A DNA stretch of 34,370 nt. It comes from a virus. The DNA lies in the IMG/VR virus record IMGVR_UViG_3300043466_000074, positions 1-34,370 of that record. One strand, 5' to 3'. Made by a program: the position numbers and the translations under genes. Positions within the stretch are counted from its first letter, which is position 1. Each line of letters begins with the position of its first letter. A model generated the notes under the pieces. That model did no database searches and was not told the origin of the DNA. It saw nothing but the letters and a program-made list of their open reading frames with translations. Positions 6,904-15,906 of this stretch are shown piece by piece.

Positions 6904-8862
6904 CTAACCTAAACTTGCAGATGCTACAATATTTCTGTCTAAACTTTGTGCCGTAGTAACATCATTTGAAACCACATAAGCCTTAACTGGAGGCTGCTCT
7001 TTTCCTATTGTGTTAGCTATTTGATTTGTACTAGCTGGACTTGTTCCTACTACATTAAATGAAGGAGTTCTTGGAGTAGCACCACCAGATAGAGCACCTC
7101 CACCGCCTCCGCCACCGCCTGGTACTTTAACCGCTAAAATATCCGAAACATTTTTATATCCCGCAGCTAAAGCTAAACCTGCATTTATAGGAGCTAAGAA
7201 TGGACCAACATAAGGAATGCCAACTGTTGATTCATACGCTTTTTGAGCTGAACTAATAGTGGAAATTGTTGCACTCGCAATTGCTAAAGCCTTTCCTGCT
7301 GCCGTTTCTTTTCCAATTAAATTAGCTACGTTTGCTAAGGTATCAGCAACTGCTAAAGCCGCCGCTCTCTTGGCATCTCTTTCTCCTTCAGCTATTTTCT
7401 TTCTAGCGTCAGAGTTTTGTTTTTCAAATGCAGTTCTTTCTTCCTCATTCTTAAATATCATTTCTGACATTAATTTTTCTCTCTCTGCGACTGCTGCTAA
7501 CCTTGTATCAAATGCAAGTTTTTCGTTGTTAGCTCTATCTAATTCCTTATCTGTTAATTGTTTAATTTGACGATTTGACTCATCAATTAAACCTTGCGTT
7601 TCTAATTGAAGTGCTGCATAATCTCTCTGCTCTTTTTCAATTCTTAATTTTTCAGCAGCGTCATCATATTTTTTAATAATCGTTGCTCTATCTTTTAAGA
7701 ATGCCTCATCGATTTTTGAAAAATCTTTATAACCTGCTTTAATTAATTTAGCTCGATCTTGATTGTATTTATCAATTCGAGTTTGTATTTCTTTGTTTTT
7801 ATCATTTAATAAAGAAATTTCTGCCTCTCTATTTATTCTATCAGCTTCTAATCTAGCAGCTGCTAATTCTTTTTTTCTATTCTCCTGCTCATCATCTCCA
7901 TCTTTTTCATCCGCCATCATTTGCCTTTTAAGCATTTTGGCTTGCTTGTTTAATTTAATGCCATTTCTTGCACCTTCTTCTTTTGCAGCATAGTATGCAG
8001 CTTCTCTATCTCTTTCTTCTTGTGCTAATTGTTTAGCTGCTTCACCTTTTAATGTTTTTCTTCTTTCACGAATAATAATTAAATCTTTTGCAGCAATACG
8101 AACACGTTCTTGAGATGCTGCATTTTCTGATTTAGTAACTTCTACTAATGCCTTTTGCTTTTCTTCTAATGAAGCAGTCTCATCCGTTAAAATATCACGT
8201 GATCTAACTAATAAATAAGCATTTTTTGCCTCCTCAACCGCAGAGATTTTACGTGCTTTGTCGTTTTTCTGTTGTTGCTTTTCTAAATCTTTTAATTTGC
8301 CAAATGTTGTTGTAGCTGCATCTCCTAATTGATCCATTGAAATGCTTGCCTGTTTGGTAGCATCTCCGAAGGCTTCCATACCTCCCTTAAAATCAAGAGT
8401 GATAAATTTATAACCTGCTTCAACTAAATCTATAAATGCTCTACCTAATCCAAAAACTGCATCCTTGACCTGAGTCATTACACCACTAAGTGCAGCAAAA
8501 ATTGCTTTTAACTCTTTACCACCTGCAACTGAATTTTGAAATGCTTCATATAAAAATTTAAGAGAAACTACAATAGCAGTAATAATTAATCCAATTGGAT
8601 TAGCTACTAATTGCCACATTTTTAAAAGTAAACCATTACCTGCTTCTGTCGCTCCTTTAAGACCAGGAATTAATTCCATAGCCCCCTTTTTTATAGCATC
8701 AAATGCACTTGATTTTTTGCCAACTTCGTCTAGCTTTTCATTTAAATCGCCAGTTTCATTCTTAACACCTTGAATATTATTTTTAAGGTCACTAAAAAAT
8801 TTAGCGATGCCAGATTGGTTTTTGGTTTTTACCTCAAGCGTAACTACTTTTTGCTCTGCCAT
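6904..8862 (-). CDS. Tail tape measure protein
   Basis: A 652-residue protein that sets tail length. A hydrophobic segment is at about 82-110 (LVANPIGLIITAIVVSLKFLY). Long charged coiled-coil regions span about 190-500 (EEKQKALVEVTKSENAA, RKKELAAARLEADRINREAEI). An Ala-rich stretch at about 500-580 includes YVGPFLAPINAGLALAAGY, and there is an eight-glycine run at about 590. At the usual 1.5 angstrom per residue the tail would be near 98 nm. It starts inside the end of the small gene at 8844-8999, and its length is shorter than that of many tape measures but normal for a genome of this size. Confidence 0.9.
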   Translation of the reverse strand: MAEQKVVTLEVKTKNQSGIAKFFSDLKNNIQGVKNETGDLNEKLDEVGKKSSAFDAIKKGAMELIPGLKGATEAGNGLLLKMWQLVANPIGLIITAIVVSLKFLYEAFQNSVAGGKELKAIFAALSGVMTQVKDAVFGLGRAFIDLVEAGYKFITLDFKGGMEAFGDATKQASISMDQLGDAATTTFGKLKDLEKQQQKNDKARKISAVEEAKNAYLLVRSRDILTDETASLEEKQKALVEVTKSENAASQERVRIAAKDLIIIRERRKTLKGEAAKQLAQEERDREAAYYAAKEEGARNGIKLNKQAKMLKRQMMADEKDGDDEQENRKKELAAARLEADRINREAEISLLNDKNKEIQTRIDKYNQDRAKLIKAGYKDFSKIDEAFLKDRATIIKKYDDAAEKLRIEKEQRDYAALQLETQGLIDESNRQIKQLTDKELDRANNEKLAFDTRLAAVAEREKLMSEMIFKNEEERTAFEKQNSDARKKIAEGERDAKRAAALAVADTLANVANLIGKETAAGKALAIASATISTISSAQKAYESTVGIPYVGPFLAPINAGLALAAGYKNVSDILAVKVPGGGGGGGGALSGGATPRTPSFNVVGTSPASTNQIANTIGKEQPPVKAYVVSNDVTTAQSLDRNIVASASLG

Positions 8863-12588: not shown

Positions 12589-13118
12589 TTTTGTGCTAAA
12601 TTATAACTTACTAATGTATCTAAATCTTGATTGAATGCTTTAATTAAATCAATGTCAATAAACTTTTTATATCCAGCTTCAAAAGGTTTAGTAAAAAATA
12701 AACTTGGTTTTAAACCAGTTGTAAATATGCTTCTTGAAATAATAAATGCAGTTGATTTATATGTAATATATCTTCCTGATTGTTTATCTCTAAATTGTAT
12801 TCCTTTTGTTTTTACCCACTTTTCAATTCCTTCAGTTAATCCACCTTTTTTGCCTGTACCTGTCCCAAATTTAAAAGGCGAGTTTGGTGCTTTTCTAGAA
12901 GTTTTAGATCCTTTAACTCCTTTATCTTGGTAGGCACCGTAATCATCCATTGTAAATCCTAACAAGAAATAATTTTCACCTGTTAAAATTTCACCTTTAA
13001 TACTATTATATAATTTCTTTGAAACGTTTTTCCCGCCTTTTGTTAGATTAGATCGTGATTGTTGAACGACATAATCTTTAAATCTTTTTATTACGGCTTG
13101 CGTTTCTTTAAGTTCCAT
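12585..13118 (-). CDS. Putative HK97 gp10-like tail-completion/neck protein
   Basis: A 177-residue protein, taking the ATG at 13118 that forms TAATG with the preceding stop; a TTG at 13124 would add two residues. It has the gp10-like signature of an N-terminal helix followed by GFTMDDYGAYQDKGVKGSK, then a basic loop region and FIISRSIFTTGLKPSLFFTKPFEAGY. Such proteins join head and tail or complete the tail. Basic residues predominate. Order (after chaperone and tail-terminator candidate) supports the call. Confidence 0.7.
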   Translation of the reverse strand: MELKETQAVIKRFKDYVVQQSRSNLTKGGKNVSKKLYNSIKGEILTGENYFLLGFTMDDYGAYQDKGVKGSKTSRKAPNSPFKFGTGTGKKGGLTEGIEKWVKTKGIQFRDKQSGRYITYKSTAFIISRSIFTTGLKPSLFFTKPFEAGYKKFIDIDLIKAFNQDLDTLVSYNLAQK

Positions 13119-13573
13119 TAGCAAATACTCATTTCATTAGGCACAATAACATCAAATGTTAAAGTCCAGCCTGCAATTTTATTTTCGAATCTATCTGTAA
13201 ACGGTTCTGCATTAGGATCTCCTACAATGACTACCTGATTAGAATATAATGAACCACGCATTAAATCAGCAACTAATCTTTGTGCAACTGTTAAACGAGT
13301 ATTTAAAACATCCTGCTCATTATCATTGCCTTCCCAAATATCAGTTATCTCTTCCTTTGACTCATCGACTAAGTCCATAAATAAAACAGATATATTTAGG
13401 CTTGTTGTAACTTCAGCAAGTGTTGCGTTGTTTACAATAATATGAGATAATGGAAAGATTGTCTGCTTATTTAAATCAACCTCAAATATATCTCCAATTG
13501 AAACCGTATTGACAAAAGGATTAGCTTTTAAATAGGTTTTTAATGTATCAACAATATAAAAGTATCCGTTCAT
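13118..13573 (-). CDS. Putative tail terminator/completion protein
   Basis: A 151-residue protein. It opens MNGYFYIVDTLKTYLKANPF, with VNTVSIGDIFEVDLNKQTIFPLSHI in the strand region and a helix DVLNTRLTVAQRLVADLM. The end, DPNAEPFTDRFENKIAGWTL, resembles tail-terminator-like proteins in Bacteroidota phages. Its ATG overlaps the stop of the frameshifted chaperone as TAATG, so its translation appears coupled to the -1 frame product. It starts 61 bases downstream of the unshifted chaperone stop. Confidence 0.65.
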   Translation of the reverse strand: MNGYFYIVDTLKTYLKANPFVNTVSIGDIFEVDLNKQTIFPLSHIIVNNATLAEVTTSLNISVLFMDLVDESKEEITDIWEGNDNEQDVLNTRLTVAQRLVADLMRGSLYSNQVVIVGDPNAEPFTDRFENKIAGWTLTFDVIVPNEMSIC

Positions 13574-14312
13574 TATTTTTTATTAATCATTTTCATTTCA
13601 ATTTCGGTCTTTTGTTTTTCAAAAGTTAAAAACGTTAAACTTTGATGAACGGGTAATTTGGTAATTTCATCAAATCGTCTAATGTCTCCCTTAGCAAGGG
13701 CATATAAAGACGAGTACCAACCCCATCGCTTACCGAATTGTGCTTGTTCACTAAATTCATTACCTGAGGATTCTCCTCCAAAAAGGTCATCGTACTTTGC
13801 AATAAGTCCTTCCCTAAATGATAAAAAAAAACATACGCACCAAGTGCAACATCTAAAGGCATATCTTTTAACACCTCGCAATATTTGTCTGAGCCTTCGT
13901 ATTCCTCAATTAAATACTTTTCGCCTTGCCTTCTTGTTATTGGTCTGTAAAGCACCGCCATTGCTTTATGAATGTCATCCCAGTCTACAATGTAAGTATC
14001 AAGGTCCACATATTCACCCGTTTTTAAATCGTCTAAGTTTGGAATAAATCCGAACTCCTTACCATTTAATTTAAATGATTTAATTAGTTGATGCTTCTTT
14101 GTAAACTGCTCAAACATCTTAGCGGTAATTTCGCTTACTTGTTTGTATTTAATAGTTGCAACATCCTTTAAATCAATATTACAAAATATCTGCACCATCT
14201 TTTGACGCAGAAACTCACCATCTTCATTATCTTTTGCAATCTTAATGAATTTCTGATACTGACTAAGTTTAATTTCACTCAATTCAGTTGGAATCGTTAT
14301 TTCTAACTTCAT
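13573..14312 (-). CDS. Tail assembly chaperone, -1 frameshifted long form (GT-like)
   Basis: Ribosomes reading from 14312 meet GTT TTT TTT TAT at 13832-13821, within a run of nine T. A -1 slip on T TTT TTT continues as TTA TCA TTT and gives a 246-residue product: 163 residues from the zero frame plus 83 from the shifted frame, ending at 13573. The shifted part (FGKRWGWYSSLYALAKGDIR, RFDEITKLPVHQSLTFLTFE) is clearly coding and typical of the T part of tail chaperones. Its stop forms TAATG with the next gene. Lambda G/GT is the model: both forms recruit tail-tube subunits to the tape measure. Confidence 0.8.
13635..14312 (-). CDS. Tail assembly chaperone, unshifted form (G-like)
   Basis: A 225-residue product of the zero frame. 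Residues 1-163 are shared with the long form (DNEDGEFLRQKMVQIFCNI, QFTKKHQLIKSFKLNGKEFG, YRPITRRQGEKYLIEEYEG). After the slip site the zero frame stays open for 62 more codons (HLGKDLLQSTMTFLEENPQV, LYMPLLRETLDDLMKLPNYP) and looks protein-like, so bases 13635-13823 may be read in two frames. This is unlike lambda, where G ends soon after the slip. It lies 32 bases after the terminase stop and has the 16-nt start motif. Confidence 0.75.
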   Translation of the reverse strand: MKLEITIPTELSEIKLSQYQKFIKIAKDNEDGEFLRQKMVQIFCNIDLKDVATIKYKQVSEITAKMFEQFTKKHQLIKSFKLNGKEFGFIPNLDDLKTGEYVDLDTYIVDWDDIHKAMAVLYRPITRRQGEKYLIEEYEGSDKYCEVLKDMPLDVALGAYVFFYHLGKDLLQSTMTFLEENPQVMNLVNKHNSVSDGVGTRLYMPLLRETLDDLMKLPNYPFIKV

Positions 14313-14344: not shown

Positions 14345-15553
14345 TTAGTACACGTAATACTGCCCTTTGTTGGGGTTAGACAGGTTATAGAATACGTTGT
14401 AACGTATGGCATCGATAGCGTGATTGTAGTTGTCAATAACCAATCCAGACTTTTTATCGGAGTAGATGTAGTTGTTAAATTCTTTTGCAATGTTTTGTGA
14501 GTTAGGTTCTAAAACTATTTCGTAATCTTGCATCAAAGCAATCCCAGCACTTATTGATCCTGCACCTTTCTCAGTTGCTACAATGTTGCAACGCTGATTG
14601 GATAGTTCAGCAATTAATCTAGGCTCTGCGCTATCTGCTACAATCAAACTGCCTCCGCAAACCTGCTTGTTAATTACTGCAATCTCGCTTGTTGTTAGCT
14701 TTGGTTTGTAAAGATGCTCCTTGACATAAATCTTTCGCTTGTTTTTATCAATGGCTACTTCGACTAATGTTGTCGGATCGATTGAGAAACCAAAGTCTTG
14801 CCCAAAAGATGTCTGCAAGTTATCTGGATTAAATGGCCCAAAGCTCCAGTTGGTAAATACAACACCTTCTGCTTTGTCTAGCCAACCGCCAAGAATCTGA
14901 TGCTTGTATTTTTTTGGATTGTATTGCTTTATCCTTTCAATTTCATCTAAAAAGGATTGATCTAAATGCTCAATGTTATCCTCGAAAGTTGTGTGAATAT
15001 AAGTAACGTTATTCTTTACACCATTGAATCCTTCATCTATTCCTGCCGACTCAAAAAAACGTTGGTAAATCCAATGCTCTTTTGTCGCAGGGTTTAAGAT
15101 TAAAATCACTCTATTTTGAACTCCCTTTTGTCTTATCGATAGGTTTATTTTATCAAACGTTGCCTCGTCTGTTAGCTCTTCGGCCTCGTCTAATATCCAA
15201 GTGGTAACACCTTGCAATGATTTTAGGTTTGCCGTTTGATCGCCTGAAGAAGTTCTAATTCCTTTGAATATAATTTCAGAGCCTGAGGTCTTATTTATGA
15301 TTTCGGACTTTGTTATTTCAAAGTGATGGCCTGCTTCTAATAGCTCTATTTTCTCCTGAAATTCAGGAATGATAGATAGGTGTGCAGATGTCATTGTCTG
15401 CCTTGTGAATAGAATCTTATGCCCTTTCTCAAACGATAAGAGGCTGGCAAATGTGCCAACCCCAAAAGATTTCGATGAGCCACGACCTCCGGTAACAATA
15501 AAGAATCGTGTTGTATTTCCTAAAGCCTGATATTTTTTATTAAGAATTATCAC
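14345..15553 (-). CDS. terL: Terminase large subunit
   Basis: A 402-residue packaging ATPase/nuclease. Walker A is GGRGSSKS at 22-29 and Walker B is WILDEAEE at 119-126. The C-terminal nuclease has acidic residues at D253 (GQDFGF), D307 (VADSAEP) and D381 (NHAIDAIRY). This matches the PBSX/XtmB-like terminase group. The start is a GTG at 15553 inside a GTGA overlap with the small-subunit stop, which supports coupling. It acts at the portal vertex to cut and translocate concatemeric DNA; the permuted ends of this assembly are compatible with headful packaging. Confidence 0.95.
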   Translation of the reverse strand: MIILNKKYQALGNTTRFFIVTGGRGSSKSFGVGTFASLLSFEKGHKILFTRQTMTSAHLSIIPEFQEKIELLEAGHHFEITKSEIINKTSGSEIIFKGIRTSSGDQTANLKSLQGVTTWILDEAEELTDEATFDKINLSIRQKGVQNRVILILNPATKEHWIYQRFFESAGIDEGFNGVKNNVTYIHTTFEDNIEHLDQSFLDEIERIKQYNPKKYKHQILGGWLDKAEGVVFTNWSFGPFNPDNLQTSFGQDFGFSIDPTTLVEVAIDKNKRKIYVKEHLYKPKLTTSEIAVINKQVCGGSLIVADSAEPRLIAELSNQRCNIVATEKGAGSISAGIALMQDYEIVLEPNSQNIAKEFNNYIYSDKKSGLVIDNYNHAIDAIRYNVFYNLSNPNKGQYYVY

Positions 15554-15906
15554 TCCTTAAATTTAAAAACCTCTGCTGCGTTAAAGTTTACCTCGTGAGT
15601 ATTGTTGCTTTCAACGTGTGTCATTGATAACTGGCGAAGCTCATCAGGTGTAGCAATAAGCTTCATTAAACCCATTTGAAGAGTTGGATTATCTGATTTA
15701 TACCACTTAGATCGCATTGAAACTTTAATCTCTGTCTTGACTTTAGTTAATGCAGATTTTATAGAGTCGGATTCGTGTAATTTATGATTGTAAAATGTTT
15801 CTTTGCTACAAGGCAAGTAAGCAATAATATCCTCAAAAAAAAATAGTTTATACTTTTCTATCGCTTCTATTGATTGCTTCTCAAGTTCTAAATAATTATA
15901 AGCCAT
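15550..15906 (-). CDS. terS: Terminase small subunit
   Basis: A 118-residue protein directly before the large terminase gene, with GTGA overlap. The N-terminal half contains a helix-turn-helix-like segment (EDIIAYLPCSKETFYNHKLH). The rest (SALTKVKTEIKVSMRSKWYK, LMKLIATPDELRQL) fits small terminase subunits that bind the packaging site and regulate the large subunit. It overlaps the methyltransferase stop by 11 bases. Confidence 0.85.
   Translation of the reverse strand: MAYNYLELEKQSIEAIEKYKLFFFEDIIAYLPCSKETFYNHKLHESDSIKSALTKVKTEIKVSMRSKWYKSDNPTLQMGLMKLIATPDELRQLSMTHVESNNTHEVNFNAAEVFKFKE

Follow-up and report, generated by a model that had tools for sequence, protein, structure and literature searches.

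A conserved run of at least nine T and two selected C-terminal tails on one stretch of DNA in a candidate tail-assembly chaperone gene of Bacteroidota phages

The window analyzed here is a virus record, IMGVR_UViG_3300043466_000074, of 34,370 bases. It carries on its minus strand a gene, referred to below as the slip gene, in which a run of nine T is followed by two overlapping continuations, one in the original (zero) frame and one in the −1 frame. The gene, its slip site, and its neighbors are the following.

13635 to 14312, minus strand: predicted zero-frame product, 225 amino acids plus stop, consisting of a shared N-terminal region of about 163 amino acids and then a 62-amino acid zero-frame tail
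13823 to 13831, minus strand: slip site, nine T, in the phase GTT TTT TTT TAT (13832-13821), with heptamer T TTT TTT
13573 to 13824, minus strand: −1 frame tail, 83 codons plus TAA, predicted helical C-terminal domain with the KRWGWYSSLYALAKGD motif
13638 to 13822, minus strand: dual-coding overlap spanning 62 zero-frame codons, with each frame open and, as judged across relatives, under purifying selection
13766 to 13778, minus strand: GAGGA-GAA-TCCTC inverted repeat, 46 bases past the slip site, not conserved and judged incidental
13118 to 13573, minus strand: next gene, 151 amino acids, phrog_30964, function unassigned in PHROG
14345 to 15553, minus strand: terminase large subunit, upstream neighbor (PF04466, PF17288)
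6904 to 8862, minus strand: tape-measure-like protein, 652 amino acids, downstream in the same direction, weak match to phrog_2854 (E 3e-8)

The reading in the −1 frame starts with LSFREGLIAKYDDLFGGESSGNEFSEQAQFGKRWGWYSSLYALAKGDIRRFDE... and stays open for 83 codons, so that a −1 shift at the run would give a fusion of about 246 amino acids; in the window, the third frame meets a stop almost immediately past the slip. An earlier reading of this DNA, made from the letters alone and called here the sequence-only reading, had pointed to the nine T in this phase, to the zero frame remaining open for 62 codons past them, and to the −1 frame ending in TAATG with the next gene, and all three features are present, the −1 stop (TAA, 13575-13573) overlapping the ATG of the next gene. 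In 287 of 379 relatives the −1 stop coincides with or adjoins an ATG (ATGA in 199, TAATG in 87), which suggests that translation of the next gene is coupled to that of the fusion and not to that of the zero-frame protein. In the other genes of the window the equivalent frame is open for at least 62 codons at only 25 of 4888 positions; since the arrangement of open −1 and zero frames is also conserved in 384 of 388 distinct relatives, it is more than a chance occurrence. The order of genes is terminase large subunit, slip gene, genes without assigned function, tape-measure-like gene, head protease, and portal. A second T9 run occurs on the coding strand at 15835-15843, inside a 118-amino acid open reading frame (15550-15906).

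Relatives of the slip gene were collected from viral and genome contigs by one plain scan and five scans with aligned queries, which returned more than 400 loci; 434 loci were fetched, of which 388 were distinct after the removal of duplicates. The scans employed patterns taken from conserved stretches and retained the best 80 loci per scan, and it should be noted that relatives without the motif or without the shift would escape them. The sequences are mainly metagenomic contigs and belong to a large set of Bacteroidota phages, most of them uncultured. Kinship was controlled by the use of disjoint pairs and of 105 representatives under 70% identity, and not by a full tree-based model; pair identity was measured on the upstream part only, and a recombinant could blur pairs. 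A search of about 800 Bacteroidota genomes yielded two informative extra loci. One (L439), from a Flavobacteriaceae-family genome, is a prophage lying within a long chromosomal contig; its slip site is kept and is followed by a 67-codon zero-frame tail. The other (L440), also from a bacterial genome, reads GGT TTT TTT TTG, the T9 having moved by one base, and has a 40-codon zero-frame tail; it is intermediate between the Nonlabens-phage-like members described below and the long-tailed members. Two low-quality long-read PLSDB "plasmid" records, CP045836.1 (L436, Lysinibacillus pakistanensis) and NZ_CP040811.1 (L437, Escherichia fergusonii), were left out. Each is about 66-67 kb in length, with two matches to the slip gene and many frame breaks, and they look like head-to-tail dimers of a Bacteroidota phage genome of about 33 kb that have been filed as plasmids.

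The −1 shift is found, in one codon phase, in 384 of the 388 distinct relatives, with T9 in 354 and T10 in 30 among the matches listed, and no run of T7 or T8 occurs among these 384. In the four exceptions, two contigs end just upstream of the site (L037 and L139), one has a 1-nt upstream deletion (L004), and one has no T run where it is expected (L142). The isolate phage P12024L also carries the T9 slip site. This conservation bears out the proposal, made in the sequence-only reading, of a programmed −1 slip at the T run; eight or ten T, which had been held to count against it, are represented by the 30 relatives with ten T, in which the shift is still −1, and by none with eight.

The way in which the frame changes is less clear-cut. 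Every member that has the run also has the heptamer T TTT TTT in phase, and ribosomal slipping is for this reason possible. The compared sequences indicate that the length of the run is itself conserved, and not just the heptamer: where codon 1 is without its T (AGT, GAT, or GGT), codon 4 is always TTG and the run stays at nine, and at least four divergent lineages that are missing T on one side have T on the other (L317/L341/L345, L273, L280, and L208; the same compensation is seen in L440). Stimulated ribosomal −1 frameshifting involves a slippery heptamer and then a hairpin or pseudoknot 5-9 nt on. Of these two elements the heptamer is present, but no conserved downstream structure was detected by covariation or folding energy in 105 diverse representatives. 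The GAGGA-GAA-TCCTC hairpin had been noted in the sequence-only reading as a possible, if unusually distant, stimulator; it does lie 46 bases downstream in the window, but it is kept in only 2 of the 388 relatives, and a stimulatory role is not supported.

Transcriptional slippage, by comparison, produces a population of mRNAs with bases inserted or deleted in the run. A published criterion for functional transcriptional slippage is a conserved nine-base run together with conserved overlapping open reading frames (PMC1088944), and the slip gene has both, a run of at least nine A or T with overlapping reading frames being found in non-identical homologues (T9 or T10 in 384 records). In 360 of 385 relatives the third frame runs into a stop codon exactly two codons past the slip, and TAG, TAA, and TGA all occur there. 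Such a stop would soon terminate the products of U8 or U11 transcripts, although its presence is in part a consequence of the two coding frames. T9 runs elsewhere in the contigs of the relatives show no obvious deficit relative to T8, a finding that, on the reasoning of the same study (PMC1088944), speaks against a strong tendency to slip in these hosts. Because a run of at least nine is conserved and a stimulatory RNA structure was not found, we lean slightly toward slippage of RNA polymerase on the T run, with the addition of one U, as the mechanism. The −1 shift of the sequence-only reading is retained in either case; what it did not consider was transcriptional slippage, which is suggested by the strict rule of nine or more T. 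In the open-licence literature no report of transcriptional slippage for a phage tail chaperone was found.

The principal alternative is ribosomal −1 frameshifting on U UUU UUU, of the lambda/P2 type, in which case the dual coding would be unchanged and the extra T's would be kept by the amino acids that they encode. Tailed phages commonly use such lambda-type ribosomal shifts (PMC5009743), and the in-phase heptamer is what they would use, but the lack of a conserved downstream structure in the 105 representatives, the lack of any run of seven or eight among the 384 shifted relatives, and the matching of each loss of T in codon 1 by a T in codon 4 all weigh against it. We regard ribosomal slippage as a serious candidate that nevertheless falls short of being probable.

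The case that the zero-frame tail is coding does not depend on which of these mechanisms operates. In all 373 relatives compared, the zero frame is open for 45 codons, whereas 37 were predicted to be so by synonymous-codon sampling of each −1 protein, and the third frame is open over the same distance in none of the 373. Once the zero frame has closed, further stops in it are about as frequent as expected (1200 versus 1015). Between disjoint pairs, the −1-frame synonymous difference drops sharply at the slip, going from about 0.30 upstream to 0.05-0.21 within the overlap, and recovers at about codon 56, from which point it is 0.27; for codons 3-45 its ratio to the upstream value is 0.44 (0.40-0.49). 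In close pairs, third-position change in the −1 frame is 0.096 in the overlap as compared with 0.229 upstream and 0.195 after the overlap. A natural experiment is provided by codons 60-67, for which the ratio is 0.47 (0.26-0.72) in relatives with the zero frame open but 0.82-1.08 in those where it is closed or closing; for codons 69-75 there is no clear difference between the open- and closed-zero-frame groups. Furthermore, transitions in the overlap that leave the −1 protein unchanged tend to exchange similar amino acids in the zero frame (BLOSUM62 score of −0.21 versus −0.76 expected), and no −1-synonymous change there creates a zero-frame stop (for transversions, 0 versus 15% expected), while after the zero-frame stop such stop-making changes are at expectation. 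Similarity at the protein level was not by itself used as evidence of coding because the −1 motif KWGWYQS directly imposes some of the conservation seen in the zero frame (NGxGI.QS). As judged by these comparisons the dual coding is real, both frames past the slip being under selection so that one stretch of DNA serves for two proteins. The sequence-only reading had proposed both the dual coding of the overlap and an analysis of synonymous rates as a check on it, and the check, carried out in hundreds of relatives, upholds the proposal.

The zero frame is open for 47-88 codons past the slip in all of the listed relatives but five. These five, which are Nonlabens-phage-like records, stop 16-26 codons past the slip and are the only relatives with the early zero-frame stops that the sequence-only reading had regarded as contrary to its proposal; since they do not have the long zero-frame tail, the tail is not needed in every member.

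Several other explanations of the overlap were weighed. A regulatory element or folded RNA within the overlap would, like a second protein, lower synonymous rates, and the extreme conservation of the first eight codons past the slip might be taken for the mark of such an element; however, neither covariation nor unusual folding energy was found, and the constraint varies with codon position and with where the zero frame stops, which makes an RNA element very improbable as the source of the constraint. It is slightly more improbable still that the zero-frame tail is a by-product, held open by chance or codon bias where only the −1 frame matters. The shadow of KWGWYQS in NGxGI.QS and the five relatives with early stops are in keeping with this reading, but chance is ruled out by the 373 open frames against 37 expected, and the reading is refuted across the group by this excess, by the end of the synonymous constraint where the zero frame ends, and by the conservative character of the zero-frame changes. 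To be ranked equally low is the possibility of two independent overlapping genes, with a −1 domain translated from its own start and no frameshift: an ATG, GTG, or TTG does occur near the slip in the −1 frame in 160 of 378 relatives, and P12024L_41 is annotated from an internal ATG, but ATG itself is found there in only 9 of the 378, the window has none before the motif, the run of nine is left unexplained, and single-reading-frame homologues of the fusion exist. The notion of a single broken gene with an indel from sequencing or assembly is scarcely credible and is refuted by T9 or T10 in 384 distinct records, in isolate phage P12024L, and in the L439 prophage, even though homopolymers are prone to errors and the two excluded long-read "plasmid" records, with their many other frame breaks, show T8 and T7.

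The explanation that best accounts for these observations is a single gene from which selection maintains two products. Conventional translation would give the protein of 225 amino acids, and a programmed −1 change at the T9 run would give the fusion of about 246 amino acids, in which the first 163 or so residues are shared and are joined to a different, well folded, helical C-terminal domain; both frames would be read over some 62 codons after the slip, with both readings kept by selection. From the sequence comparisons we consider this combination of a programmed −1 shift at T9 with a dual-coded overlap to be quite probable, and we infer that both products are made. In AlphaFold models, the zero-frame product has a mean pLDDT of 75.8, with a long helix (residues 153-180) that runs across the slip and a tail that is mostly of low confidence from about residue 190-193, whereas the −1 domain is all helical with a mean pLDDT of 85.9. 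Viral proteins of 226-267 amino acids in BFVD match the zero-frame and −1 models in one uninterrupted frame, as if the fusion existed elsewhere without a shift. The BFVD entries concerned are A0A6J5N0W0, A0A516L5A8, A0A6J7WJY4, A0A6J7WDG4, A0A6J5MY57, and A0A6J7XA66. Because the −1 domain folds confidently and the zero-frame tail does not, and because uninterrupted viral reading frames match both models, the −1 domain probably represents the original continuation, onto which the zero-frame tail was later overprinted, a sequence of events suggested by the models and not by a rooted tree.

In phage lambda the G/GT chaperone is encoded between the major tail protein and tape measure genes and binds the tape measure and tail tube proteins, a set ratio of the two products being needed for tail assembly. 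By analogy with gpG and gpGT, which the slip gene resembles in giving a long and a differently ended product within a block of tail and neck genes, its two products are fairly likely to act as a tail-assembly chaperone pair. The gene lies directly after that for the terminase large subunit, and the tape-measure-like gene is several genes downstream; a major tail protein was not identified among the genes of the window. The identification as a tail chaperone in the sequence-only reading is plausible but weakly supported, by the gene position, although the order is not that of lambda, and by two weak matches, to phrog_166 ("tail protein") by 12 of 58 members, with a best E of 5e-4, and to a single Foldseek model ("tail assembly chaperone protein") with an E of 0.043; searches of Pfam, NCBIfam, PDB sequences, and PDB folds gave no match. 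The PHROGs that are matched, 32199 and 38404, are both without assigned function. Flavobacterium phage 6H gp10 was considered as a shifted relative and rejected, being a weak fold relative with no clear shift site. When the several parts are combined, it can be proposed, tentatively and as somewhat less likely than not, that these Bacteroidota phages make two tail-assembly proteins with alternative C termini by RNA polymerase slippage at T9-10, with the two ends encoded in different frames of one stretch of 55-88 codons and the zero-frame end having been overprinted on the older −1 domain.

The significance of the system is that in hundreds of phages a single DNA segment appears to encode two full-size C-terminal ends, both of them retained, with the standard product having a selected tail of its own. 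It allows a direct test of RNA polymerase versus ribosomal slippage in phages as the basis of a C-terminal switch and offers a well sampled case of overprinting, with living relatives in which the zero frame stops early.

Frameshifted tail chaperones are a textbook example of recoding in which the zero-frame product normally ends near the slip, and the survey by Xu et al. (2004) is reportedly the founding one of conserved tail-gene frameshifts. No report of the slip gene family or of a long dual-coding overlap in a chaperone was found in the open-licence literature. One likeness is to potyvirus P3N-PIPO, in which a slip also gives a fusion with a C-terminal part from another frame of a coding region, both frames being selected (PMC5009743); this is an unrelated RNA virus system and a mechanistic analogy only. 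The bacterial insertion sequence elements, Thermus dnaX, and Shigella mxiE, in which transcriptional slippage occurs on 9 A or T, resemble the slip gene in having a conserved run of at least nine with overlapping reading frames (PMC1088944) but differ in that the slip gene is known from DNA sequence. Another counterpart is the P12024L_40 and P12024L_41 pair (PHROGs 32199 and 38404) of the Nonlabens phages P12024L and P12024S, which is homologous and has the same place after the terminase, the T9 slip site, and the −1 domain, but in which the zero frame stops 25 codons past the slip, so that there is no long dual coding. In the P12024L record (JQ823123.1, L038, 9001-9695) the two halves of this one frameshifted gene are annotated as separate hypothetical proteins. 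With lambda gpG/gpGT the slip gene shares a −1 shift near the end of a short gene, a common N-terminal part, and a C-terminal domain that the −1 frame encodes (PMC5009743), and this architecture of a short reading frame plus a −1-frame C-terminal domain is present and conserved in 384 relatives; the likeness is one of gene architecture rather than of demonstrated sequence homology. The slip gene differs from lambda in its gene order, which here is terminase, slip gene, several others, and the tape-measure-like gene, and in that the slip takes place at a conserved run of T9-10. It differs also in that lambda-type chaperones stop soon after the slip, as the sequence-only reading had remarked of lambda G, whereas here both products are long: the distance from slip to stop averages 26 nt in 2476 annotated phage cases (PMC10885494), whereas the zero frame continues for 186 nt in the window and for 141-264 nt in most relatives, and it is by this length that the zero-frame tail departs from the known kind.
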